Assembly (NCBI GenBank): GCA_028284935.1
Contig: JANQQQ010000012.1
Coordinates: 372,001-436,000, forward strand
Length of the DNA: 64,000 bases
Reading direction: 5' to 3'
Source of the DNA: Croceivirga sp.
GTDB lineage: Bacteria > Bacteroidota > Bacteroidia > Flavobacteriales > Flavobacteriaceae
Positions 28,937 through 64,000 of the stretch are shown here, in pieces. The notes below the pieces were generated by a model. It searched no databases, was not told the DNA's origin, and saw only the letters and a program-made list of their open reading frames with translations. How positions within the stretch are numbered: position 1 is the first letter of the stretch; each line of letters begins with the position of its first letter. Both the position numbers and the translations under genes were made by a program.

Positions 28937-31900
28937 TCACTTTTTACCTACTGAAATTTGAGGAATGTTTTTTGTCTTTTCGTTAATTCCCCCAATATCA
29001 GTGCTGATGATTTGGTTGAGGGTGCGATTGGCATCCGCAACTTCTCCCCTCAATTGCTGTAACCTTGATAACTGTGGTTGGGTAGGTGTAGCCCATGCGC
29101 CATTTACAGCGCGCATCAAGGATCGAATCTCTTCACGCAATCGAGGTCGTTGCCTGTAGGTCATGGAGGGTGGAGGCCTTTTCAAAATATCATCCTGCAA
29201 GGCCGAAATCTTTTTCATGGCCCCCTCAATAGCATCGGACAGAGCCTCATCAAGTGCTTGGTTTTGTTTCAGTTTTTTCTTCAACTCCTGTAATTGGGTC
29301 TTGTAGGTGTTGGTGGTATTGATCATTATGTTGGTCTGCGACAACAATTCCCGGAGATCCAATAGCAATTGTGTTTTGGAGGTATAAACCTCTTCGCTTA
29401 AGTTCATTCGAGGATCGCCGCGTACTTCAATTGATGTTTCTGACACGGTTCCATTGACCTTGAGACGTGCCGTATAGGCTCCAGGGGAAACGTAGGGATG
29501 CATTTGCCCTGAAAAGAAACCGCCTCCGGAGGCTCCTTCCATTTTCGTTGCAGCTTCATGGCCCAAATCCCAAACGATTCGATTTACTCCTGCCCTAGCT
29601 GTGGTATCTTTTAATGTTCTGATAACGCTTCCTTTGTTATCAAGAATTTCAACAACGGCGGTGCTATTTTCTCCTTCAGCTAAAAAGTAGTTGATATTGG
29701 CCCCATACTCCGGATTTTTGGCCCTGTAATGACGATCGCCCAAATTCTCAATCCGCCAGAACATGTGCCAGAGTGTAGCCTTTCGTACAGGAAATAGATG
29801 GGTGGATTTACCTTTGGTGTCCCCTATTTCCCGAAGCGGTCGAATATCATCCAATATCCAGGCGCCTCTGCCATGGGTACCTACGATTAGATCATGGTCC
29901 CTTTTCTGGATTCGAAGATCCCGAACTGAAACATTGGGAAGATTGTTATTGATTTTGGTCCAAGATTGCCCTTTATCCCAACTTGCAAAGATGCCATGTT
30001 CCATTCCTGCAAACAGCACATTTGGATTTATGGGATCCTGTCGTACTACTTTCACATAATCGTCCTGTGGTAGGCCATTACTTATTTTCGTCCATGTTTT
30101 GCCATAATCTCCTGTCATAAAGACATAAGGCCTAAAATCATCCATTCTGTGCTGATCTACGGTTACAAAAGCAGTTCCAGCATCGTGTTCCGAAGCATGT
30201 ATTTTTGCCACCCAAGCAAATTCTGGCAATCCCTTGATTCGGTCATTGAGTTTGGTCCATGTAGCTCCCCCATCCCTAGTTATTTGCACATTGCCATCGT
30301 CAGTTCCCACCCAAATGACCCCCTTTTCAACCGGAGACTCATCAATGTACAATATGGAACAATGAAATTCGGCAGCGGTATTGTCTTGGTAAATTTCGCC
30401 TCCCGAAGTACGTTGCTTTGATTTGTCATTGGTCGTTAGGTCAGGACTGATTTCTTCCCATGAGTTCCCTCTATCCGTGGATTTAAAAACTACATTTCCC
30501 CCAAAATAAACGGTATTTGGGTCGTGCGGGGAAATGACAATAGGAGAATCCCAATTGAATCGATATTTATGATTTTCTATGGCATCTCCTGCCGATCCAA
30601 TGATTTTAGGATAGGGATGAATGTTCCGAACATTGCCATAGCGGGAATCCACATGAAAGATGACACCTCCCTGTAAATTGGCATAAACCTCATGTTCACT
30701 GCCCGGTATAGGCACGGCATAGTAACCGTCACCGTAAGCAAGCCCCTTCCAATGCCGTTTCAATATACCGGCTGAATACAATGAATTACTCGGGCCCACC
30801 CATGTTCCGTTATCCTGTAACCCTCCGTAAACATTGTATGGGTCTTTGTTATCAATGAAAATTTGATAGAACTGCGATAATTCCACATTATTAATGATCT
30901 CCCAATTATCGCCACCGTCGTAGGATATTTGATAGCCACCGTCGCTACCATTTAAGATATAGTCCGAATTCGTGGGGTCTATCCAAAGGGCTTGGTGATC
31001 ACCATGTACCGTCGTGGCAATGCGCTCCCAATTGTTCCCACCATCCACAGATCGACTAAGCCTACCGGAAATGGAAAAGAGAATATCTGGATTGTTGGGG
31101 TCCACCCTGACATCACTATAGTAAAATGGACGAAAATTAATATTGGGGTCATCGTTGACCATAACCCAATGATCCCCGCGATCCTCAGACCGAAACGCCG
31201 TACCTCCCCCTTGAAACTCGGTCATCAAGTAAATAATATTGGGGTTGCTTTGCGCAATGTGTATTCCAGGTCTGGCCATTGGGGTCTCAGGTAAACCGTT
31301 CATTATTTTTTTCCAAGTTTCCCCTCCGTCCATAGTTCGATAGACTGCCGTTTCCTTACCTCCATCATCAAAACGCCAAGGCTTCCTTCGAAACGTCCAC
31401 ATACCCGCGTACATGATACGGGGGTTACTTCGGTCCATGGCAATATCAGAACAGCCAGTATCCTCATCAATGTACAGTATTTTCTTCCAATTTTTGCCTC
31501 CATCGGTGGTTTTGAAAACCCCTCTTTCAGGATTGGCTCCCCATTCCTTGCCCAATGCGCATACACAGGCAACATCAGGATTGTTGGGGTCAACCACAAT
31601 GCGTTTAATCCGTTCTGTTTTTTTTAGCCCAAGGTGCGTCCAGTTCTGACCGGCATCAACAGAACGATAAACGCCCCAACCATAGCCAACACTATTTCTG
31701 GGATCTCCTTCTCCCGTACCGACCCAGAGTACGTTGTGATCGGAAGGTGAAATGGTCAAGGCTCCAATGGAGTACGCACGTTGACCCTCAAATATTGGAG
31801 TGAAGTTGACTCCCCCGTTTGTAGTCTTAAAGATTCCGCCATCGGCGCCGGATACATAAAAAGTACTCGGATCTCCAGGAATCCCGTCAATATCAGTTAC

Positions 31901-55217: not shown

Positions 55218-55229
55218 TGATTCAAATCA
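55218..55229 (+). promoter_or_regulatory. CRP/FNR-type box with -7 element 35 bases on (TGATTCAAATCA)
   Basis: TGAT-TCAA-ATCA. The exact -7 element TACTTTTG starts at 55253, 35 bases after the box start, so the box centre is about -42 from the predicted transcript start (about 55266). This is class II CRP/FNR activation geometry. It controls the gene at 55277, whose leader would be about 10 bases. Confidence 0.75.
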
Positions 55230-55276
55230 TTATATAGTCCTAAGCCACTACCTACTTTTGAATTCAATTCTTTAAC

Positions 55277-56068
55277 ATGGCGGCAATTATCACCACTAGC
55301 TTATTTGTTGCAATTTTTGCCCTGTTTTATGGTCACTATCATTTTTACCATTCTGTTGAAAAAGACAAAGACCAACTTTTTAATAAGAACGGTAATACGG
55401 AAAGACCAGTTGTACAGCAAGATTTAAGGGATTTGCCCCAACTTTTGGTGGACTACTTAAAGAAAGTCGGTGTTGAAGGAATATGTAGTGACTGTCATCT
55501 AACCTTTAAACAGCGGGGTCGAATACGAAAAAATGCCAGTAGCAAATGGATGGATTTTTCCGCAAAACAGTTGATGTCCGCAGTACCGATAGGTTTTATC
55601 TGGGCAGCCAAATCCTTCCCATTGTTCGTCAAGGATAGATCCATTATGGGAATTGGGGAAACCAATGTTTCCCTATTCGGACTGCTGTCCATAGGAAAAA
55701 AGCAATCCCATAAAATCCATGAGAGCGCCCTCAATAGGTGTTTGGCTGAGCTTCCCTTGTACCCCATAGCCTTTTTGAACAAGGCCATTACATGGAAAGT
55801 TTTGAATGAAAATTCGTTAAAAGCAAACCTAATCGTTGACAATACAAAAGCGAAAGGTGTTTTCTACTTTAACGAGAATGGCTTGATAGAACGTTTTGAG
55901 TCAGAACGCTACCGTGGAGAAGTTTTGGATGAATTTGTAGGGAAATTTGGAGATTATGAAGTCCTCTCAGATTTATACGTACCTACAAAGATGAAGGCCC
56001 TATGGAAATTGAAGGAAGGCGATTTTGAATATTTTAATTGCGAAATCATGGATTATAGGATAGACTGA
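55277..56068 (+). CDS. DUF6544-like protein of unknown function
   Basis: 263 residues. An N-terminal hydrophobic segment (AAIITTSLFVAIFALFYGHYHF) probably anchors it in the membrane. It continues with LPQLLVDYLKKVGV, a CSDC pair (VEGICSDCHLTFKQRG), KWMDFSAKQLMSAVPIGFIWAAKS and LAELPLYPIAFLNKAITWKV; the latter layout resembles the DUF6544 family. Function unknown. It is the first gene of the stress cluster, has its own CRP/FNR-type promoter and converges with the 70-residue gene at 56081. Confidence 0.6.
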   Translation: MAAIITTSLFVAIFALFYGHYHFYHSVEKDKDQLFNKNGNTERPVVQQDLRDLPQLLVDYLKKVGVEGICSDCHLTFKQRGRIRKNASSKWMDFSAKQLMSAVPIGFIWAAKSFPLFVKDRSIMGIGETNVSLFGLLSIGKKQSHKIHESALNRCLAELPLYPIAFLNKAITWKVLNENSLKANLIVDNTKAKGVFYFNENGLIERFESERYRGEVLDEFVGKFGDYEVLSDLYVPTKMKALWKLKEGDFEYFNCEIMDYRID

Positions 56069-56080
56069 CTTCGAACAGAA

Positions 56081-56293
56081 CTAGAGATAACAATATTTGA
56101 ATCCTATTTTGTCCATCTCGGTTATTGCACTATCCAAATCTCGAAAAGACCCGTAATCAAATCCAAATGTTTTGCTGCCCAAATCAATCTGGACATTTTG
56201 GATAAATCCTATCGAATTGAACCGTTCAATTATTTCTTTCTGGGTAAGGGAACAGTCTTCCAAGTTTAAAACCCTAAAATAAATACGTAGCAT
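56081..56293 (-). CDS. Small protein with ferredoxin-like (beta-alpha-beta) fold pattern
   Basis: 70 residues: MLRIYFRVLNLEDCSLTQ, then an amphipathic helix (KEIIERFNSIGF), strands (IQNVQIDLGSKTFGFDYG) and a second helix (DLDSAITEMDKIGF), matching a small beta-alpha-beta-beta-alpha fold like HMA or ACT-type domains. The paired CxxC of HMA proteins is absent. Unknown family. A CRP/FNR-type box upstream in the matching orientation supports it as a real gene. Confidence 0.6.
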   Translation of the reverse strand: MLRIYFRVLNLEDCSLTQKEIIERFNSIGFIQNVQIDLGSKTFGFDYGSFRDLDSAITEMDKIGFKYCYL

Positions 56294-56353
56294 TGCTGTG
56301 GCATTCTAAAATTTTCAAGTACTAATGTTAACTACCCCGGTCCGCATTAGAAA

Positions 56354-56365
56354 TGATTTGAATCA
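56354..56365 (-). promoter_or_regulatory. CRP/FNR-type box (TGATTTGAATCA), probably serving the 70-residue gene
   Basis: Identical in sequence to the box at 56514. Read on the minus strand a weak -7 candidate (TAACATTA) begins 35 bases from the box start, at 56330-56323, and the ATG is at 56293. No matching -7 is present on the + strand. Confidence 0.55.
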
Positions 56366-56513
56366 ATTTGAATTAGATAATTCTAAAAAACAGAGTTAAC
56401 AAAACTGCCCAGGATAAAATTTATTGGTTAGTATTATTTGTTTGAGTTGAACTTCTTCAAAAGAAAAGTTCATGCTACACATGAATTTGTGTGTCGCGAA
56501 AATGCTTTCTTCA

Positions 56514-56525
56514 TGATTTGAATCA
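56514..56525 (+). promoter_or_regulatory. CRP/FNR-type box with exact -7 element 35 bases on (TGATTTGAATCA)
   Basis: The box is followed by TAATTTTG at 56549-56556, an exact -7 match starting 35 bases after the box start, and the ATG of the universal stress gene at 56576. Same geometry as the box at 55218. Confidence 0.8.
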
Positions 56526-56575
56526 TTTTAACACATGTATGTTGATCGTAATTTTGTTTTATTAAATGGAATGCC

Positions 56576-57454
56576 ATGAAAACAATACTCTACGCAACGG
56601 ATTGTTCGCCGAATTCGGGATTGGCATTGAAATATGCCTACCGCTTGAGTTCCAATATGAAAGCCAAGTTACACGTGCTTCATGTTTATGAACTTGAAGC
56701 TTTTGTGACGGCAACCGTTAGAAGGCACAGCCAGTTGGAACTCAATTTTGCAGAAGAGCAGCGTCTGCTACTCGAGGAATACTGTGAAAAGCAGTTGGAA
56801 CACGAACACACCAAAAGTGATGTGGAACTGATTGTCGATGAAAGCAGCTCCATAACCAAAAGTATTTTGAACGCTTCCAATAGGATTGATGCTGATTTGG
56901 TAGTTGTTGGCATCAAGAATTACCAGTCGCTAAGGAGCTATTTTTCTGAGAATATAGCCAACAAGTTGCTTTACATGATTGAAGTTCCTTTGCTATTGTT
57001 GCCTCCCGAAGTGTATTTTCATGGGTTGTCCACCTTGGTGTATGCAACGGATTTTGAAAAGGCCGATATATTGGCCATAAAGGAATTGGTAGCATTTGCG
57101 AAACCATATGGAGCGTTGATAAAAGTTGTTCATGTTCCAAGAAAAAAGGAAACCCATGTTGAAAGAAAAATGAACACCTTTGAGAGAGAGGTTAGGGAAT
57201 CTTTCTTTTATCCAGAATTGGTCTTCTGTAACAAAGTATCCGAAGATGTTGAAACAGGGATCAAACAGTGTATTAAGGAAGAGTTGCCAGAAATGCTGGT
57301 GATGTTGGAACGCGGGCATGGTTTTTGGCTCGATCGGCTTTTCCAGAAAGACATGGTGGAAGTCATGGAAGGCGAGGTATCCATTCCGTTGTTGGTTTAT
57401 AACAAAAAAAACAAGCACCTGAGTATAACCGAAGAGGTATATAGTGCTTCTTGA
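56576..57454 (+). CDS. Two-domain universal stress protein
   Basis: 292 residues, two UspA-like domains (about 1-145 and 146-280). The first begins MKTILYATDCSPNSGLALKYAYRL and ends DADLVVVGIKNYQSLRSYFSENIANKLLYMIEVPLLLLPPE; the second begins LVYATDFEKADILAIKELVAFAKP. The usual ATP-binding run Gly-x2-Gly-x9-Gly-Ser/Thr is not preserved in either domain (VVGIKNYQSLRSYFSEN; LERGHGFWLDRLFQKD), so it may belong to the non-ATP-binding type or use a different ligand. Universal stress proteins support survival under hypoxia, starvation and stress. Driven by a CRP/FNR-type promoter. Confidence 0.88.
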   Translation: MKTILYATDCSPNSGLALKYAYRLSSNMKAKLHVLHVYELEAFVTATVRRHSQLELNFAEEQRLLLEEYCEKQLEHEHTKSDVELIVDESSSITKSILNASNRIDADLVVVGIKNYQSLRSYFSENIANKLLYMIEVPLLLLPPEVYFHGLSTLVYATDFEKADILAIKELVAFAKPYGALIKVVHVPRKKETHVERKMNTFEREVRESFFYPELVFCNKVSEDVETGIKQCIKEELPEMLVMLERGHGFWLDRLFQKDMVEVMEGEVSIPLLVYNKKNKHLSITEEVYSAS

Positions 57455-57740
57455 ATTGTGAAGGTCTAATCCATGTACATTTTTACTTAGACGGCTTTGT
57501 CATAGGCATGTAGTCAAAATCTTTGATGTAATTGGCAAAGCCACTGTTTTACATGAAATTAGGAAAACATGATTTCTTCAATCTTCAATTTTTGATGTCC
57601 CAAAAGGTTCAATTATCTCACTGGATTCCATCATTGGCTTATTGGTTTACTCCCTATTTCCAAATCATGGACAATGATGCTTAATTTTCATGGAAGTATC
57701 TTCAAAAAAAACAGTTCGAATACATTTTACATTTTCGCCA

Positions 57741-59162
57741 TTACAGCATGGTAGTTGGGGTCACATATTCTGAGATATCAAATTTGCCAGAGGCCTTCAT
57801 GTCCTTAAAGCCCCCTTTTACATCAATAAGGTTTTCATAACCTATGGCCCTAAGAATGGAGATAAAAACCATGGAACGGTACCCACTCCTGCAATGCACA
57901 TAATAAATCTTTCTCTTATCGATTTCGGAAAGCTTGTCTTTATAATAATCCAAGGGCAGGTTAATGGCATGCAGCACATGCTCAGTATTGTACTCACTTT
58001 CTCTTCTCACGTCCAATATATCCACATGTTTTTCTTCCATGATGGAAGCCAGTTTTTCAGGACGAACCGACTTTACGGTATACAGTTGGTTGCCGTTGTT
58101 TTCCCAAGCTTTTACACCTCCTTTTAAATATCCTAGGGCATTGTCAAATCCTATCCTTGCCAAACGCGTGGCCACTTCTTCCTCCTTACCTTCTTCAGCC
58201 ACAATCAGTATGGGGGTTTTTACATCCACTATCGTGGTGCCCACCCAATTGGCGAAGCTTCCATCCAGTCCAATGTTGTAGGAATTGGGAATATAGCCCC
58301 AAGCAAATTTTTGGGCATCCCTGGTGTCCAGGATAATGGCATTGGTTTCTTCTAAAGCGGTAGCGAACGCCGTTGCACTCAAAGGGTTCGTGCCTTTCCG
58401 TATCACATCATCTATTTTTTCATACCCTTGGATGTTCAACAGCACATTTTGTGGAAAATATCCTGGAGGTGGTGTTAAACCGGTTAAAATTCGGTCAATG
58501 AATTCCTTTTTGGTCAATGTGGAATCTAACGCATAATTCGTCTTTTTTTGATTACCAAGCGTATCCGTAGTTTCGTTGCTCATCATCTTGCCACAGGCAC
58601 TTCCCGCTCCATGCCCAGGGTAAACGATAACATCATCGGGCAAGGGTATTATTTTATGCCGTAAGGAATCAAAAAGGTGTCCCGCCAATTTTTCCTGGGT
58701 CAGTTCGGCAATTACTTTCTGCGCCAAATCGGGTCGGCCCACATCTCCAATGAATAAAGTGTCTCCTGAAAACAACGAAGTCTCCTTTCCGTTTTCATCC
58801 AATAAAAGATAGCAACTGCTTTCCATGGTATGCCCAGGAGTATGGAGAAGTCTAATAACTACATTCCCTAATTTGAACTCTTGGCCATCTTTGGCAGAAA
58901 TAAAATCAAATCCTGTCTCCATTTCCGTTGGTCCGTAAATGATTTTTGCCCCTGTTTTTTTGGCCAAGTCCATATGTCCGGAGACAAAATCCGCATGAAA
59001 ATGGGTCTCAAAAACGTATTTGATCTTGGCATTGCGTTCTTTGGCCATTTCAATGTACGGCGCAACTTCACGCAGGGGGTCTATAATGGCAGCCTCACCA
59101 TTACTCTCGATATAATAGGCCCCATGGGCCAAGCACCCTGTATAGATTTGTTCTACTCTCAT
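57741..59162 (-). CDS. MBL-fold persulfide dioxygenase-like protein with two rhodanese domains
   Basis: 473 residues. Metallo-beta-lactamase domain (1-235): THFHADFVSGH with H54, H56, D58 and H63, then LLHTPGHTMES and LFSGDTLFIGDVGRPDL, the pattern of ETHE1/CstB-type persulfide dioxygenases. Rhodanese 1 (about 265-360) has ILIVAEEGKEEE where the active-site loop should be, without cysteine, so it is inactive. Rhodanese 2 (about 370-460) has the active cysteine C424 in YVHCRSGYRS. It would oxidise glutathione or protein persulfides to sulfite and transfer sulfur. It reads away from the stress cluster but has a CRP/FNR-type box upstream (59257-59268). Confidence 0.88.
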   Translation of the reverse strand: MRVEQIYTGCLAHGAYYIESNGEAAIIDPLREVAPYIEMAKERNAKIKYVFETHFHADFVSGHMDLAKKTGAKIIYGPTEMETGFDFISAKDGQEFKLGNVVIRLLHTPGHTMESSCYLLLDENGKETSLFSGDTLFIGDVGRPDLAQKVIAELTQEKLAGHLFDSLRHKIIPLPDDVIVYPGHGAGSACGKMMSNETTDTLGNQKKTNYALDSTLTKKEFIDRILTGLTPPPGYFPQNVLLNIQGYEKIDDVIRKGTNPLSATAFATALEETNAIILDTRDAQKFAWGYIPNSYNIGLDGSFANWVGTTIVDVKTPILIVAEEGKEEEVATRLARIGFDNALGYLKGGVKAWENNGNQLYTVKSVRPEKLASIMEEKHVDILDVRRESEYNTEHVLHAINLPLDYYKDKLSEIDKRKIYYVHCRSGYRSMVFISILRAIGYENLIDVKGGFKDMKASGKFDISEYVTPTTML

Positions 59163-59256
59163 CGTTCATGATTTAAATTGCCCTAAATAATTGAATACAC
59201 ATTTAGTATGCAGTAACAATGGTTACAAACCTCTTAAAGTCGTATTGAAAAAAAGA

Positions 59257-59268
59257 TGATATTCATCA
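59257..59268 (-). promoter_or_regulatory. CRP/FNR-type box (TGATATTCATCA) for the MBL-rhodanese gene
   Basis: Core TGAT-N4-ATCA. On the minus strand a -7-like GAGGTTTG (one mismatch to TAnnTTTG) begins 35 bases from the box start, at 59233-59226. The ATG is at 59162, giving a leader of about 58 bases. Confidence 0.6.
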
Positions 59269-59328
59269 GTAAAGTAAAAGTAAGAATATACCCAGTTGGC
59301 CTAGTAATCTCCCTTAATTGGACGAAAA

Positions 59329-59340
59329 TGACCTAGGTCA
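59329..59340 (+). promoter_or_regulatory. CRP/FNR-type box (TGACCTAGGTCA) for the HPF-like gene
   Basis: A perfect 12-base palindrome of the TGAC-N4-GTCA variant. A -7-like TACTTTCA begins exactly 35 bases after the box start (59364). The ATG is at 59387, so the leader is about 10 bases. Confidence 0.6.
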
Positions 59341-59386
59341 TGGCGTAGGTTTGATGCAGCTTCTACTTTCATCCAAAATCTATATT

Positions 59387-59713
59387 ATGACCATAGACAT
59401 TAAATATGAACACATACCAAAGAGTCAAGATTCATATGGTATTATGATGGACGGAATGGAGGAATTATCCAAGAAATACCCCTTTCTTCAAAGGGCCGAT
59501 GTGATATTCCATTTGGCGAGCGATTTTGGACAGATTCAGAGAAAGTGCACGATATGCCTCTATGTAAATAAAAAAATCCTTCATGCCTGGTCAATAAATG
59601 AAAGTCTTGAAAAGGCAGCTCAAGCGGCATTGGACAACGCGGGAGTTCAATTGGCTAAACAAAGACCGGCCAAGCGTAACAGCAATTATGAAGAAAATAT
59701 TAGTTCCTATTGA
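59387..59713 (+). CDS. HPF/RaiA-like ribosome-associated protein
   Basis: 108 residues from the ATG at 59387; an upstream in-frame start at 59318 would lie before the promoter. The pattern ADVIFHLAS, CTICLYVNKKILHAWSINESLEKAAQAALDNAGVQLAKQRPAK resembles the S30AE/HPF fold (alternating beta strands and helices, basic C-terminus), whose members bind the 30S subunit and hold ribosomes in an inactive state. The match is moderate. It overlaps the start of the broken usp gene by 26 bases and has its own CRP/FNR-type promoter. Confidence 0.6.
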   Translation: MTIDIKYEHIPKSQDSYGIMMDGMEELSKKYPFLQRADVIFHLASDFGQIQRKCTICLYVNKKILHAWSINESLEKAAQAALDNAGVQLAKQRPAKRNSNYEENISSY

Positions 59714-60521
59714 TTTTTCCGTGCATTCCAAAATGCCCTTGAAGTAGCCAGCATTTTGTCCAAGGGATTTGATGCACAACTTATTCTTTTCCATATGGTT
59801 GGAATTTCTGAATCCGTGCTATCAAAATCTGAGCTGGAGGAGCAAGAGGAGGCCAAATATTATCTGAAATTGGCAAGAAAGAGATTGTCCTCTTTTATTG
59901 ACCAGCCCTATCTTAAGGGTTTGACCATTACAACCGTCATTCAAAACCTAAAGGATTTTAGTGAAATTGCGGAAATGGCGAAAGAGAAGGAAGTGGATTT
60001 GATTGTTATGGAGTCTTATGGCGCAAGCAGTGTAACGTCTTTTTTTGTAGGTTCCAATACCGAAAAAGTGGTTCGTACCTCCACTATTCCGGTTCTGGTC
60101 ACAAAGGAAAGAAGGAGCTCTTTTAAAAATTGATCACATGTTACTCGCAACCGACCTTGAAAAAGAGGGCGCTGTAGCGTATCATAGGGTAGCTGACTTC
60201 GCAGAAAAAATGCAAGCAAAATTGACCTTGGTTTACATCAACACCATTGGCGCAACGTTTCGAAGTAATCCATAAATACTTGAAAAGGTAGAAACATTTC
60301 ACAAGACTATTGGAGCTAAAGTTCCTATTGAAATCTATAATGATTACTCTATAGAAGAAGGTATTTATAACTTTGCTCAAACCATGAATATTGATTTGGT
60401 AACCGTACTGACACACGGTAGAAAGGGCTTGGCACACTTTTTTTTGGGAAGTATAAGTGAGAGTTTGGTGAATACGGCAAAACTTCCAGTACTCACCTTA
60501 AAAATCCAATCAGTTGAATAG
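59688..60521 (+). pseudogene. Universal stress protein gene broken by two frameshifts and one stop
   Basis: The ATG at 59688 opens MKKILVPIDFSVHS, the standard UspA start. Reading stops soon after; restoring one A in the A-run at 59730-59733 continues as NALEVASILSKGFDAQLILFHM and so on to 60133. Removing one A from the A-run at 60125-60129 would join the first domain (VLVTKERRSSFK) to a second domain starting MLLATDLEKEG at 60138. An in-frame TAA at 60273 then interrupts the second domain, which otherwise continues ILEKVETFHKT to a stop at 60521. Taken together a normal two-domain protein of about 277 residues is disrupted three times. The intact flanking domain sequence suggests recent loss. 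Confidence 0.75.
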
Positions 60522-60917
60522 TAGAAGTTGTAGCTTTCCCAGTACGATAAGCTCTGATTTATTGCTCCCGGCAAAGGCCCCGGCAATAGAACGGGCAGTG
60601 GTCATGGTCAAGTTCTTTACCTCTTCATTGAACAACTTTTGGTAGTCATTAAAAAATTCTTCAAATGCTTCATAGCATTCTTCGCTATTCTTTTCATTTT
60701 CCAATAACCAATCGAAAACAGTCTCAATTTGAAAGGCGGCATCTGTACCGTACTCATCCACAATGTCATCAAGTTGCAACCAATGTTCACGTACTACCGC
60801 TTTTAAACGATCAATTTCCTTGATGTGAACACTATGATCTGCTATGGCCACTGCATAAAATAGCTTTCCCAAATTTTGATAGAATTCCTTACCTATTTTG
60901 TCCTTTGCATCTAACAT
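60510..60917 (-). CDS. TerB-like uncharacterised acidic helical protein
   Basis: 135 residues, all-helical prediction, acidic (EYGTDAAFQIETVFDWLLENEKNSEECYEAFEEFF). The segment GKLFYAVAIADHSVHIKEIDRLKAVVREHW resembles the DG-rich helix turn of TerB-like proteins, so a TerB-like fold is possible, but the match is limited. Function unknown. It has a CRP/FNR-type box upstream (60970-60981) and overlaps the end of the broken usp gene by 12 bases. Confidence 0.55.
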   Translation of the reverse strand: MLDAKDKIGKEFYQNLGKLFYAVAIADHSVHIKEIDRLKAVVREHWLQLDDIVDEYGTDAAFQIETVFDWLLENEKNSEECYEAFEEFFNDYQKLFNEEVKNLTMTTARSIAGAFAGSNKSELIVLGKLQLLLFN

Positions 60918-60969
60918 TTTCTTACCTTTTTAACAGGATTAATGTAGTAAGATGGATGCTTTCTTAATA

Positions 60970-60981
60970 TGACGGATGTCA
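60970..60981 (-). promoter_or_regulatory. CRP/FNR-type box (TGACGGATGTCA) between the TerB-like gene and the kinase gene
   Basis: TGAC-N4-GTCA. On the minus strand a -7-like TACATTAA begins exactly 35 bases from the box start (60946-60939), with the ATG at 60917. On the + strand the same box overlaps the -33 area of a -7-like TAACCTTG (60992-60999) before the kinase start at 61004, so it could activate one gene and repress the other. Confidence 0.6.
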
Positions 60982-61003
60982 TAAATATGCATAACCTTGA
61001 TGT

Positions 61004-62515
61004 ATGAAACTCTTCGAAGAAAATGACATTTTCAAAATATTATCAGAGGCTATATCTGAGGGAATTCTCATAGTAAATGATAAGCAACAGATTGTGGCCA
61101 GTAATTCGGTGGCCAATGAAATGTTTGGGTATTCCGATGAAGAGCTGAATGGGCAACCCCTAAACATCCTTTTGCCCAAAAACGCTACGGTGCTCCACAC
61201 TGATTATTTCATGGGATTCATGCGGAAAGGGGAGAAAAGAAGCATGGGGAAAGGACTGGATTTACGAGGAACTCAGAAGGATGGCAGTGAGTTTCCCTTG
61301 GAGATTGGCCTTAATCCCTTTAAGCTTCTACGCAAAAAATACGTGATGGCTTTGGTGGTGGACATCTCTGAAAGAAAAAAGGCCGAACAAATTATTGGGC
61401 ATTGGTTCAATATTTTTAACGAATCCTTGGATGAGATTTACGTTTTCGATGTGGAATCATTCACCTTTCTTAACGTTAACCGTGGTGCTCAGCTCAACCT
61501 AGGATATAGTATCGAGGAATTGGATGGAATGTCGGTTTTGGATATTAAACCCAAGCTGACCAACAAAAGTTTGGCTAGACTTTTAAGGCCTTTGCTTCAA
61601 AACAAAAAGGATAAGATAGAATTTGAGACCATACATCGGCGAAAGGATGGAACCAACTATCCAGTAGAGGTACACCTTCAATTATCACTATTGGATAAAA
61701 AACAAGTGGGTGTCGCCATAGTTTTGGACATTACCGAAAGAAAGAACTACACCGAAAAATTGGAACGGACCGTTGAGGAACGGACGGAACAGTTAAGTAG
61801 CGCCCTTAAAAAAGAAAAGAGCTTAAATGAATTGAAAACCAAGTTTCTTTCACTGGTTTCCCATGAATTCAAGACCCCCTTGTCGAGTATCCTAACGTCT
61901 ATAACACTTTTATCGAAATACACGGAAACCAATCAACAGGAAAAAAGAGACAAGCATATAGGTACCATTAAATCCAAGGTCAAATATCTTGATAATATAT
62001 TATCCGACTTTCTGTCGATAGAGCGATTGGAAACCGGGCAGGTACGATACAACACTACATCATTCCCCTTGAGCAAATTGATCAATGAAGTGGTTTATAG
62101 TGCCAATTCGTTGTTGAAGGAAGGTCAACGGATTGTATACCCACAGAATATTGACGATATCATGGTAACCTTTGACGAAAAGATATTGGCCTTATCCTTG
62201 ACCAATCTTTTACATAATGCCATCAAGTATTCTTCAGAAAACAGCACCATTGAGGTTGCTGTGGAATTGCAGGGGGATGCTCTTATCATAAATATATTTG
62301 ACGAAGGGATTGGAATACCTAAAGATGAACAGCCTTATGTCTTTGATCGTTATTTCAGGGCAAGCAATGTGCTAACGACCCAGGGCACGGGTATTGGACT
62401 CAATATTGCAAAACAGCACCTGATTAATTTAAATGCTGAAATATCCTTTGAAAGCAAAGAGGGAAAAGGTAGTACGTTTGCCTTAAAAATTCCCCACAAA
62501 ATCCAATCATCATGA
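61004..62515 (+). CDS. Soluble PAS-PAS sensor histidine kinase
   Basis: 503 residues, no membrane segment. PAS 1 at about 8-120 (IVASNSVANEMFGYSDEELNG), PAS 2 at about 125-240 (FLNVNRGAQLNLGYSIEELDG), a short coiled coil, HisKA with phospho-acceptor H287 in LVSHEFKTPLSS, and HATPase with N-box LTNLLHNAIKYSSEN, G1 IFDEGIGIP and G2 GTGIGLNIAK. It senses a cytoplasmic signal such as redox or oxygen, but no haem-binding residue can be pinned down by eye. It overlaps the next gene (ATGA), so the pair is translationally coupled. Confidence 0.92.
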   Translation: MKLFEENDIFKILSEAISEGILIVNDKQQIVASNSVANEMFGYSDEELNGQPLNILLPKNATVLHTDYFMGFMRKGEKRSMGKGLDLRGTQKDGSEFPLEIGLNPFKLLRKKYVMALVVDISERKKAEQIIGHWFNIFNESLDEIYVFDVESFTFLNVNRGAQLNLGYSIEELDGMSVLDIKPKLTNKSLARLLRPLLQNKKDKIEFETIHRRKDGTNYPVEVHLQLSLLDKKQVGVAIVLDITERKNYTEKLERTVEERTEQLSSALKKEKSLNELKTKFLSLVSHEFKTPLSSILTSITLLSKYTETNQQEKRDKHIGTIKSKVKYLDNILSDFLSIERLETGQVRYNTTSFPLSKLINEVVYSANSLLKEGQRIVYPQNIDDIMVTFDEKILALSLTNLLHNAIKYSSENSTIEVAVELQGDALIINIFDEGIGIPKDEQPYVFDRYFRASNVLTTQGTGIGLNIAKQHLINLNAEISFESKEGKGSTFALKIPHKIQSS

Positions 62516-63561
62516 AAAAAATATTATTGGTTGAAGATGATGCCTCGCTAAGGGAAAACATGGAGGAGCTACTGGATCTTTCCGGTTTTTTGGTGTCTTC
62601 CGCTTCCAATGGGCGGAAAGCCATTGAATTGGCAAAAAAAGAAATTCCCGATTTGGTATTATGTGATATTATGATGCCTGAAATGGATGGCTATACCGTG
62701 CTGGAAAACCTTTCTTCCCATAAGGAAACCTGCCATATCCCTTTTGTGTTTGTATCCGCCAAAACCGAACATCATGACGTAAGAAAGGGGATGAATCTTG
62801 GTGCCGACGATTATTTGACCAAGCCTTTTGAAGAAGAGGAATTATTGGATACCATCAACTCAAGGCTTAACAAGGCAGCTACGTTAAACAAAACCCTGTT
62901 GGAATGGCATTCCAACAAAGGAAAAGAAGAAAAAATCCGTACGTTGGAACAGTTGAAAAACTTTTTTGACGATTACGGCAAACCCTATTCCTTCAAGAAA
63001 GAAGAAGGTATTTACAATGAGGGTGATCACTCCAATATGGTCTATCTAATTACCAAGGGGGCCGTTAAATGTTATCGTCTTGATGAACAAGGCAAAGAAC
63101 TGATAACTTCCGTTTATGCCACCGATGAATTTCTAGGTTTTACCTCATTGATGGACCATATACCCCATCAAGAATTTGCAGTGGCCCTGGAGGACACGGA
63201 ACTTGCCGGAATTTCAAAATCGAAGTTGAAGAATATTTTGGAAGAAAACCAACATGTTTCCTTGGAGATATTGGAAGTAATGGCAGAAAGCCTTTCCGAA
63301 ATAAAGGAACAATTACTGCAGATGGCTTATAGTTCCGTGAGAAAACGTACAGCACATACCTTGTTGCAATTTTCACGGGCCATGGGAAACAAAAAGGGAC
63401 AACCTCTAAAAATTGCTAGAAGCGATTTGGCAGGGGCCGCAGGCGTGGCAACTGAAAGCCTTATCAGAACCCTGTCGGACTTTAAAAATGAAGGTCTGAT
63501 TTCCATTGAGAACAGGGATATTCATATTCTTGATTCAGAAACATTACAACAAATTGTTTAA
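62512..63561 (+). CDS. Response regulator fused to a CRP/FNR-type sensor and DNA-binding half
   Basis: 349 residues. REC domain (1-118): VEDD, phospho-acceptor D52 (CDIMMPEMDG), VSAK and K104. A linker is followed by a cNMP-binding-like beta-barrel (about 155-240; YNEGDHSNMVYLITKGAVKCYRL) and a Crp-type winged helix (about 275-345). The recognition helix ATESLIRTLSDFK keeps E315 and R319 of the E-xxx-R pattern that reads TGA half sites in CRP and FNR. No FNR-like iron-sulfur cysteine set is seen. It is the cognate partner of the preceding kinase and the best candidate to bind the TGA(T/C)-N4-(A/G)TCA boxes around it. Confidence 0.9.
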   Translation: MKKILLVEDDASLRENMEELLDLSGFLVSSASNGRKAIELAKKEIPDLVLCDIMMPEMDGYTVLENLSSHKETCHIPFVFVSAKTEHHDVRKGMNLGADDYLTKPFEEEELLDTINSRLNKAATLNKTLLEWHSNKGKEEKIRTLEQLKNFFDDYGKPYSFKKEEGIYNEGDHSNMVYLITKGAVKCYRLDEQGKELITSVYATDEFLGFTSLMDHIPHQEFAVALEDTELAGISKSKLKNILEENQHVSLEILEVMAESLSEIKEQLLQMAYSSVRKRTAHTLLQFSRAMGNKKGQPLKIARSDLAGAAGVATESLIRTLSDFKNEGLISIENRDIHILDSETLQQIV

Positions 63562-63564
63562 AAT

Positions 63565-63576
63565 TGATATTTATCA
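63565..63576 (+). promoter_or_regulatory. CRP/FNR-type box (TGATATTTATCA) for the last stress gene
   Basis: The -7-like TAATTTAG begins at 63600, exactly 35 bases after the box start, with the ATG at 63628. It lies four bases after the response regulator stop. Confidence 0.7.
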
Positions 63577-63627
63577 TTACAGGAGAAATTGGGACACCAT
63601 AATTTAGTGAGGTCATAGCTTTTTTTG

Positions 63628-64000
63628 ATGAAGAATATTTTAGTTCCTACAGACTTTTCGCAGAATTCCGAAAGAGCCTTGGAATATGCCCAATTTTTAT
63701 TTGCCTCTTTTGAGTGCAATTTTTACTTGTTACACGTTGATAGTTTTTTAAACGTTCAGGGCGAATCCTTTATCCCCATAAAAAAATCAAAAAGACCCAA
63801 CTACACCAAACCCACCAAGGAACTTTTACAAGATCTATTGAACCGTACCAAGGAAAATTCGGCTATCAAACAGCATTCGTTTTATGCCATTCATGAGTAC
63901 GGCTTTTTTATTGAATCCGTAAAAAAGCAATTGGAAGATCGAAAAATAGACCTTATTGCTATGGGTACCAAAGGAGTTTCCGGTCTTAGGGAAAAGGTGG
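63628..64000 (+). CDS. Universal stress protein (partial, runs off the window)
   Basis: 124 codons are visible from the ATG at 63628 and no stop is reached. The N-terminus MKNILVPTDFSQNSERALEYAQFLF is a standard UspA start, and LIAMGTKGVSGLREKV near the end matches the Gly-x2-Gly ATP-binding loop that the protein at 56576 lacks. Third usp gene of the cluster; its promoter carries a CRP/FNR-type box. Confidence 0.88.
   Translation, partial: MKNILVPTDFSQNSERALEYAQFLFASFECNFYLLHVDSFLNVQGESFIPIKKSKRPNYTKPTKELLQDLLNRTKENSAIKQHSFYAIHEYGFFIESVKKQLEDRKIDLIAMGTKGVSGLREKV

Follow-up and report, generated by a model that had tools for sequence, protein, structure and literature searches.

The question raised by the locus considered here is which regulator reads a series of promoter boxes, and in response to which signal. 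The window, by which we mean the whole stretch of 64,000 nucleotides that was analysed (Croceivirga sp., Flavobacteriaceae; contig JANQQQ010000012.1, positions 372,001 to 436,000), carries seven boxes of the form TGAYN4RTCA, together with the genes of a sensor kinase and of a protein in which a receiver is fused to a CRP-type activator (REC-CRP). We put at roughly 75% the probability that these boxes are class II sites of a low-oxygen regulon, in which a FixL-like kinase drives a REC-CRP protein that shares its boxes with FNR. The observations on which this reading is based are the motif and its spacing, the co-occurrence of the motif with the regulators, the synteny of the regulator loci, a recognition helix common to both regulators, and the homology of a PAS domain.

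Spacing between boxes and promoter elements

All seven boxes (starting at 55218, 56354, 56514, 59257, 59329, 60970 and 63565) are present at the coordinates given in an earlier, sequence-only reading of the window. Read in the direction of the adjacent gene, six of the seven boxes are followed by a TA, the beginning of a -7 element, at a distance of exactly 35 bases from the start of the box; the exception, at 59257, has the element GAGGTTTG, with GA instead of TA as its one mismatch. Perfect TAnnTTTG elements start at 55253 and 56549. Over the seven boxes, the 8-base element at offset 35 agrees with the consensus in 34 of 42 letters; elsewhere between offsets 15 and 60 there are at most 3 of 7 TA and 18 of 42 consensus matches. 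The binomial probability of the TA at offset 35 is about 4e-7 for a single offset and 2e-5 for 46 offsets. The weight of the evidence is in this spacing, the 12-mer alone being modestly, about twofold, over-represented (11 matches in the window versus 4.91 expected, and 11 or more in 2 of 100 shuffles). Since the four further matches, at 31647, 45597, 47466 and 48427, all sit within open reading frames (ORFs), the earlier remark that no intergenic box was seen in 1-55 kb holds.

Mapping in Flavobacterium psychrophilum placed TAnnTTTG, the -7 box of sigma-A, at -12 to -5 (PMC9723704). With the fixed gap of 23 nt between box and element, the box would occupy -47 to -36, which bears out the proposed centre near -42 at a value of -41.5; being derived from the published element position, this value refers to predicted transcript starts of the genes concerned. 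CRP and FNR act from -41.5 at class II promoters, and the boxes combine this position, as judged from the spacing, with the palindrome TGA-N6-TCA.

The same geometry was found when spacing was checked over the whole genome, as the sequence-only reading had proposed. Scanning 4.23 Mb on 38 contigs with the pattern CAAANNTAN{8,38}TGAYNNNNRTCA (box, any gap of 8-38, -7 element) gave 21 pairs, which are not randomly spaced, as 15 of them have the gap of exactly 23 that is seen in the window. Each of the six other pairs (gaps 8, 17, 22, 28, 30 and 30) falls in a stop-to-stop frame, 273-726 aa long; of the 15 gap-23 sites, 13 are in no such frame longer than 124 aa and two are in frames of 276 and 515 aa. 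At each of the 15 sites, which are spread over four contigs, a start codon occurs 47-126 nt downstream of the box start. Two of them are the window boxes at 55218 and 56514, and a third is located just beyond the window end.

Two regulator types and the sensor kinase

The REC-CRP protein of the window (62512-63561, forward strand; 349 aa, with a receiver, a domain resembling cyclic-nucleotide (cNMP)-binding domains and a Crp-type helix-turn-helix (HTH)) is the one full-length fusion of this type in the genome, and an FNR-like protein, P0001, is encoded on C16. Their recognition helices, A-T-E-S-L-I-R in REC-CRP and A-T-E-S-A-I-R in the FNR-like protein, share the form A-T-E-S-x-I-R. Residues D52, K104, E315 and R319 are invariant in the 30 REC-CRP sequences aligned, including the Asp (D52) and Lys (K104) of a response-regulator receiver, and a kinase-like ORF adjoins REC-CRP in 30 of 30 loci examined. 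The FNR-like protein has C6, C9, C55, C108, E193 and R197 invariant in 30 distinct loci aligned, and thus the four conserved cysteines of an iron-sulfur (Fe-S) FNR, although their spacing differs from that of E. coli FNR, and the NCBIfam Fnr model gives P0001 113.7 bits, below the cut-off of 228 bits. REC-CRP is very probably a protein that binds the box, and for the FNR-like protein the same is predicted with almost equal confidence. A second Crp/Fnr protein, P0002 (L027:9368-10051), is encoded upstream of the FNR-like gene, with which it is co-transcribed; it has its own box ahead, and its helix, SQEYIIN, is without the usual Arg.

In relatives, boxes accompany the REC-CRP gene. On 80 REC-CRP contigs of named relatives (L254-L333, the best 80 of at least 541), 555 kb around these genes contain 325 boxes, versus 22 in the reversed sequence, and TAnnTTTG follows at a gap of 23 in 95 cases, at 24 in 11 and at any other gap in at most 3 (reversed sequence: 0 at gap 23). 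A box lies within 350 nt 3' of the REC-CRP stop in all 80 loci, with an exact -7 element in 45, TA only in 7 and other elements in 28. In 72 loci the flanking sequence retrieved includes a homologue of the TerB-like protein encoded next to the kinase; its promoter has a box in all 72, and in 71 also the correctly placed TA. Universal stress protein (usp) homologues occur in 79 loci, and in 75 of these the best match is preceded by a box. Since relatives thus keep the boxes of the TerB-like gene and behind REC-CRP, the weaker-looking window sites at 60970 and 63565 are conserved. The gap-24 sites form a minor class and possibly reflect a second allowed promoter geometry. A full TAnnTTTG was seen at the TerB-like promoter in only 3 of the 72 loci, so this -7 element otherwise departs from the consensus almost throughout.

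The distribution of motif and regulators was compared over 199 Flavobacteriaceae genomes, assigned to the family by named close relatives and representing 198 genera. With REC-CRP called at E<=1e-40 and FNR-like proteins at E<=1e-30, REC-CRP is present in 86 genomes and an FNR-like match in 126, of which 117 are clear; the nine genomes with a weak FNR match only (about 1e-32 to 1e-49) were treated separately. In total, 173 of the 199 genomes contain the exact motif, with 1413 occurrences versus 29 for the reversed pattern (controls summed by hand). Among genomes at least 90% complete and at least 2.5 Mb in size, the mean number of exact motifs is 1.09 with neither regulator (n=11), 6.38 with FNR only (n=52), 8.23 with REC-CRP only (n=30) and 12.69 with both (n=48). 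Ordinary least squares on 141 of the 199 genomes gave 1.09 + 7.14 R + 5.29 F - 0.84 RxF (R, REC-CRP; F, FNR-like), which is near-additive, and a Poisson fit with genome size on 159 genomes gave rate ratios of 2.32 (bootstrap 1.92-2.78) and 1.81 (1.46-2.25). The genus of the window is represented in the sample by one further genome, G164, which has an FNR-like protein and no REC-CRP match, and 4 motifs versus 15. As the motif is found in REC-CRP-only, FNR-only and both-type genomes, with roughly additive counts, the one activator of the sequence-only reading is probably two; the role that it gave to the fusion protein of the window is supported.

The sites themselves were compared in the genomes for which all sites were listed (4 of 32 REC-CRP-only and 6 of 68 FNR-only), a scope that also applies to the target counts given below. 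The 38 and 54 aligned sites of the two classes differ at 1 of 60 positions (p<0.01), and the idea of a distinct box for each regulator was rejected. Out of 31 possible gaps, the gap of 23 accounts for 37 of 66 box/-7 pairs in four REC-CRP-only genomes and for 36 of 77 in three FNR-only genomes. Among the Crp-type HTH matches (E<=1e-3) of six REC-CRP-only genomes, the helix A-T-E-[ST]-L-I-R is on REC-CRP alone, and in three of these genomes (G101, G118 and G160) no other match has E-x3-R. In a sample of the phylum, REC-CRP is present in other families of the class without a clear excess of the exact motif there; the rule is therefore claimed for Flavobacteriaceae only.

The kinase gene (61004-62515, forward strand; a FixL/DosP-type PAS, a second PAS, HisKA and HATPase) overlaps the REC-CRP start. 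The first PAS matches the heme-PAS of FixL (1d06, E 6.9e-13) and of DosP (2.8e-12), and the His that aligns with what we take to be the heme ligand of these proteins is present in the window's kinase and kept in 29 of 30 kinases. The corresponding His-motif expression is matched by 73 of the 80 kinases of relatives, and six of the seven misses were inspected by eye and have a His in the corresponding position. Oxygen, perceived through heme, is thus a probable signal of the kinase. A LOV-type motif, NCRFLQG, stands in place of the FixL-type PAS, and without the His, in one kinase (L061, genome G175), and occurs also at 2 of the 80 loci; as far as can be judged from such a motif, it suggests light input into the same regulon.

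Target genes, mechanism and competing readings

The proposal of a hypoxia-like target set is supported by the genome-wide targets, which include hemN, cytochrome c, fnr and usp genes. Located 3' of the exact sites are genes for an OmpW-family protein, the Crp/Fnr pair, a cytochrome c, a thioredoxin-fold protein, an S30AE (ribosome-hibernation-type) protein, a decarboxylase and HemN, as well as usp genes, one at 56576 (Pfam) and two recognized by eye (L010 and L019). A usp-like gene run with further boxes extends from the window to about 441 kb of contig C35, the window end being at 436.0 kb, and a second cluster (C16, 190-223 kb) contains a cbb3 oxidase (ccoNO, above the NCBIfam cut-off), nosZ (above cut-off) and hemN, with the two Crp/Fnr genes at its edge. 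Within this region a nos cluster with a Sec-type NosZ (C16:204478-211754) is headed by a cytochrome c gene with an exact box, so that N2O reduction probably belongs to the regulon.

In the REC-CRP-only class (38 sites), the first genes encode Usp in 7 cases, MlaE in 4, radical-SAM proteins (HemN-type by eye) in 4, COX1 in 3, NadA in 2, and metallo-beta-lactamase (MBL) and S30AE proteins in 1 each. The 54 FNR-only sites precede genes for COX1, radical-SAM proteins and cytochrome c (6 each), thioredoxin-fold proteins (4), pyruvate-formate-lyase and phosphate acetyltransferase (3 each), S30AE proteins (2) and Usp (1); the listing for these FNR-only targets, which covers 25 of 45 families, does not include MlaE. 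The assigned start lies outside 43-130 nt of the box start in 5 of 38 and 10 of 54 cases, several of which are ccoN with a longer leader, and at least one of which (L164, 69 aa) may be no gene. The counts point to a respiratory core common to both classes, with usp leaning to REC-CRP. The MBL-rhodanese, TerB-like and usp proteins of the window have boxed homologues in the REC-CRP-only genome G130, and a search of the 54 FNR-only targets gave no boxed TerB-like or MBL homologue. Within this small sample, these three kinds of genes lean to the REC-CRP side. Oxygen limitation strongly induces the cbb3 oxidase and heme-synthesis enzymes of F. psychrophilum, and neither Crp nor FNR is mentioned in the main text of that study (PMC9723704).

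For binding, phosphotransfer, the sensing of oxygen through heme and the direction of regulation, we infer the following course of events. Low oxygen would activate the FixL-like kinase, the first PAS of which is of the heme-binding FixL/DosP type, and the kinase would phosphorylate D52 of REC-CRP. The phosphorylated dimer would bind the box at -41.5 and contact RNA polymerase as a class II activator, with sigma-A at TAnnTTTG. The FNR-like protein would act likewise, in response to a redox signal of its own, and the two would have the core targets (hemN, cbb3 oxidase) in common. It can further be envisaged that in part of the family the master low-oxygen regulator has been swapped, the hemN/cbb3 boxes at -41.5 being kept without FNR and read by REC-CRP under a FixL-type kinase, and that genomes with both types add Fe-S and heme-phosphorelay targets to one box code; towards this we incline, if only slightly.

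A number of observations tell against the proposed regulon. Motifs occur despite the absence of both regulators at the thresholds used in G138 (99% complete; 5 motifs), G048 (82%; 9) and G147 (73%; 7), and the p-values are too small, as the genomes are related, despite the 198 genera. In other families of the class, exact motifs average 3.55 with REC-CRP (n=20) versus 2.5 without (n=8), in a hand tally that considered REC-CRP only and in which FNR was not searched. E-x3-R helices other than that of REC-CRP are present in 3 of the 6 REC-CRP-only genomes, namely G130 (L230), G027 (L233, L239) and G143 (L238), with L238 and L239 being weak matches below the Pfam cut-off. The Usp excess in the REC-CRP-only class, 7 of 38 versus 1 of 54 sites (p 0.008), is by genome only 3 of 4 versus 1 of 6. 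The Arg of GxGR, presumably the distal-pocket residue of FixL-type sensors, is Leu in the window's kinase and Arg in 26 of 30 kinases, and MGxG[RSI] is matched by 45 of the 80 kinases of relatives. Finally, a metatranscriptome study took the Crp/Fnr homologues of a Flavobacteriales genome as MalR-like carbon sensors (PMC8510549).

These points leave room for other readings, among which the one that deserves most attention accepts the wiring and has the kinase sense something other than oxygen, such as NO, redox state or light. Heme-PAS domains can bind NO or CO, and the LOV-type motif (1 of 30 and 2 of 80 kinases) and the Leu in the window's kinase point in the same direction; the nearest solved PAS domains, however, are those of the oxygen sensors FixL and DosP, and the core targets are hemN-type and cbb3 genes, so that we hold this to be possible but rather unlikely. 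The FNR-like protein could also be the sole reader of the boxes, with REC-CRP just nearby and serving other targets. In other bacteria FNR is known to control hemN and cbb3, the FNR-like gene stands beside a cbb3/nos cluster that is rich in boxes, the operon of the two Crp/Fnr genes has a box itself, and CRP-family proteins of similar motif are difficult to tell apart by computation alone (PMC8510549). What makes this improbable is that REC-CRP-only genomes carry the motif, on average 8.23 times in 30 genomes versus 1.09 in the 11 with neither regulator, while the box after REC-CRP is present in 80 of 80 loci and the two helices nearly match.

Still less probable is a third Crp/Fnr paralogue that is present wherever either regulator is and acts as the true reader. 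The genome does have further Crp-family matches, and the additional E-x3-R helices in half of the REC-CRP-only genomes could be seen in this light, but G101, G118 and G160 are without such a helix among matches to E 1e-3, the helix of P0002 has no Arg, and the boxes are tightly linked physically to REC-CRP. A local regulon under one activator, which was the original proposal and would agree with seven boxes lying within 8.4 kb while those in 1-55 kb are all inside ORFs, is not borne out and was rejected as highly improbable: the 15 exact sites are on four contigs, the island continues past the window, the motif recurs in most of the family, and the hemN and cbb3 core targets are found family-wide. 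That a degenerate motif, read selectively, produced the pattern by chance would fit the roughly twofold excess of the 12-mer in the window, but is hardly conceivable in view of the offset profile, the 15 of 21 pairs genome-wide and the 1413 versus 29 sites in the family.

Relation to known systems and the genes of the window

The low-oxygen regulon proposed here resembles the FixL-FixJ-FixK cascade of rhizobia in its heme-PAS-type kinase, CRP/FNR-type activator and cbb3 oxidase targets. In FixLJ-FixK a separate, LuxR-type FixJ transcribes fixK, whereas receiver and Crp-type activator are a single protein here, and because of this fusion there is no separate FixJ/FxkR step transcribing fixK; the flavobacterial -7 promoter and the usp and TerB-like targets are further differences. 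With FNR/ANR regulons it shares a TGAT-N4-ATCA-like box, the class II position, hemN/cbb3-type targets and the four cysteines of the FNR-like protein, but that protein scores below the Fnr model cut-off, and here a receiver fusion shares the box. Like the mycobacterial DosR (DevR) regulon, it includes usp genes in a hypoxia set; the type of regulator and the box are different, since DosR is of the LuxR type and has another box.

Ten usp genes belong to the DosR hypoxia regulon (PMC6127331), and the Burkholderia lxa locus has six, which are induced at low oxygen, with a FixK/Anr-type CRP regulator under FixLJ being proposed (PMC6127331). The usp island and the CRP-type regulator are thus features in common with lxa, which is from another phylum and for which a receiver-CRP fusion is not mentioned in the excerpted text. 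Double control exists in Rhizobium leguminosarum, where fixNOQP is a target of hFixL-FxkR-FixK as well as of FnrN (PMC7888657). In Myxococcus, the regulator of the heme-dependent kinase system NmpRSTU binds cbb3 oxidase and hemN promoters (PMC11841059), but the sensor is a protoglobin and the regulator NtrC-like, unlike the CRP-type protein found here. Features that set it apart from these systems are the receiver-CRP fusion, the fixed flavobacterial promoter geometry and the genomes in which the fusion seems to replace FNR. In the literature searched, which covered few subscription papers, no description of an oxygen-control circuit of Flavobacteriaceae was found, and phrase searches gave no match for the REC-CRP architecture. 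The circuit can be tested: its promoter rule is exact, it has regulators of two types, and its targets are conserved across many genera. It also provides an example of regulators being exchanged while the DNA sites stay the same, and places usp, TerB-like and MBL-rhodanese genes in a likely low-oxygen context.

As to the individual sites of the window, the box TGATTCAAATCA (55218-55229, forward strand), with the -7 element TACTTTTG at 55253-55260, lies upstream of the gene for a DUF6544 family protein (55277-56068, forward). The box at 56354-56365 (reverse strand), with TAACATTA at 56323-56330, serves a divergent 70-aa ORF (56081-56293, reverse) that is without a Pfam match, and the box TGATTTGAATCA (56514-56525, forward), with TAATTTTG at 56549-56556, is upstream of a usp gene (56576-57454, forward). 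The MBL-rhodanese gene (57741-59162, reverse) is served by the box at 59257-59268 (reverse), for which the deviating element is at 59226-59233; a homologue in another genus (L145) carries an exact box. Upstream of the HPF-like gene (59387-59713, forward; S30AE 22.2 bits, slightly below the Pfam cut-off of 23.7) is the box TGACCTAGGTCA (59329-59340, forward), with TACTTTCA at 59364-59371. The box TGATATTTATCA (63565-63576, forward), with TAATTTAG at 63600-63607, precedes the usp gene 3' of the regulator (63628-63999, forward), which continues beyond the window end.

The box at 60970-60981 (reverse strand), with the element TACATTAA at 60939-60946, serves the gene of the helical TerB-like protein (60510-60917, reverse), a divergent homologue of which adjoins the kinase in 72 of the 80 loci. 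It also ends 22 nt ahead of the kinase ATG; no -7-like element was found at class II distance toward the kinase-regulator operon, and the box fits the TerB-like gene. The family assignment of this protein is weak, as PF05099 was matched in 6 of 36 homologues with a best E of 0.0028, and its structural model (mean pLDDT 85.6, good) gave no PDB match at E<=0.001.

A box beyond the window (C35:439712; L030:3712) separates a usp-like gene from a divergent ORF and is flanked in both directions by a correctly spaced -7-like TA element (TACCTTCA and TACTTTGC). Within the window, 3' of the HPF-like gene, a broken usp gene occupies about 59688-60522; its frame is lost after some 19 codons and a stop is present in the second half, unlike the intact usp genes elsewhere, and it is possibly a pseudogene or an assembly error.

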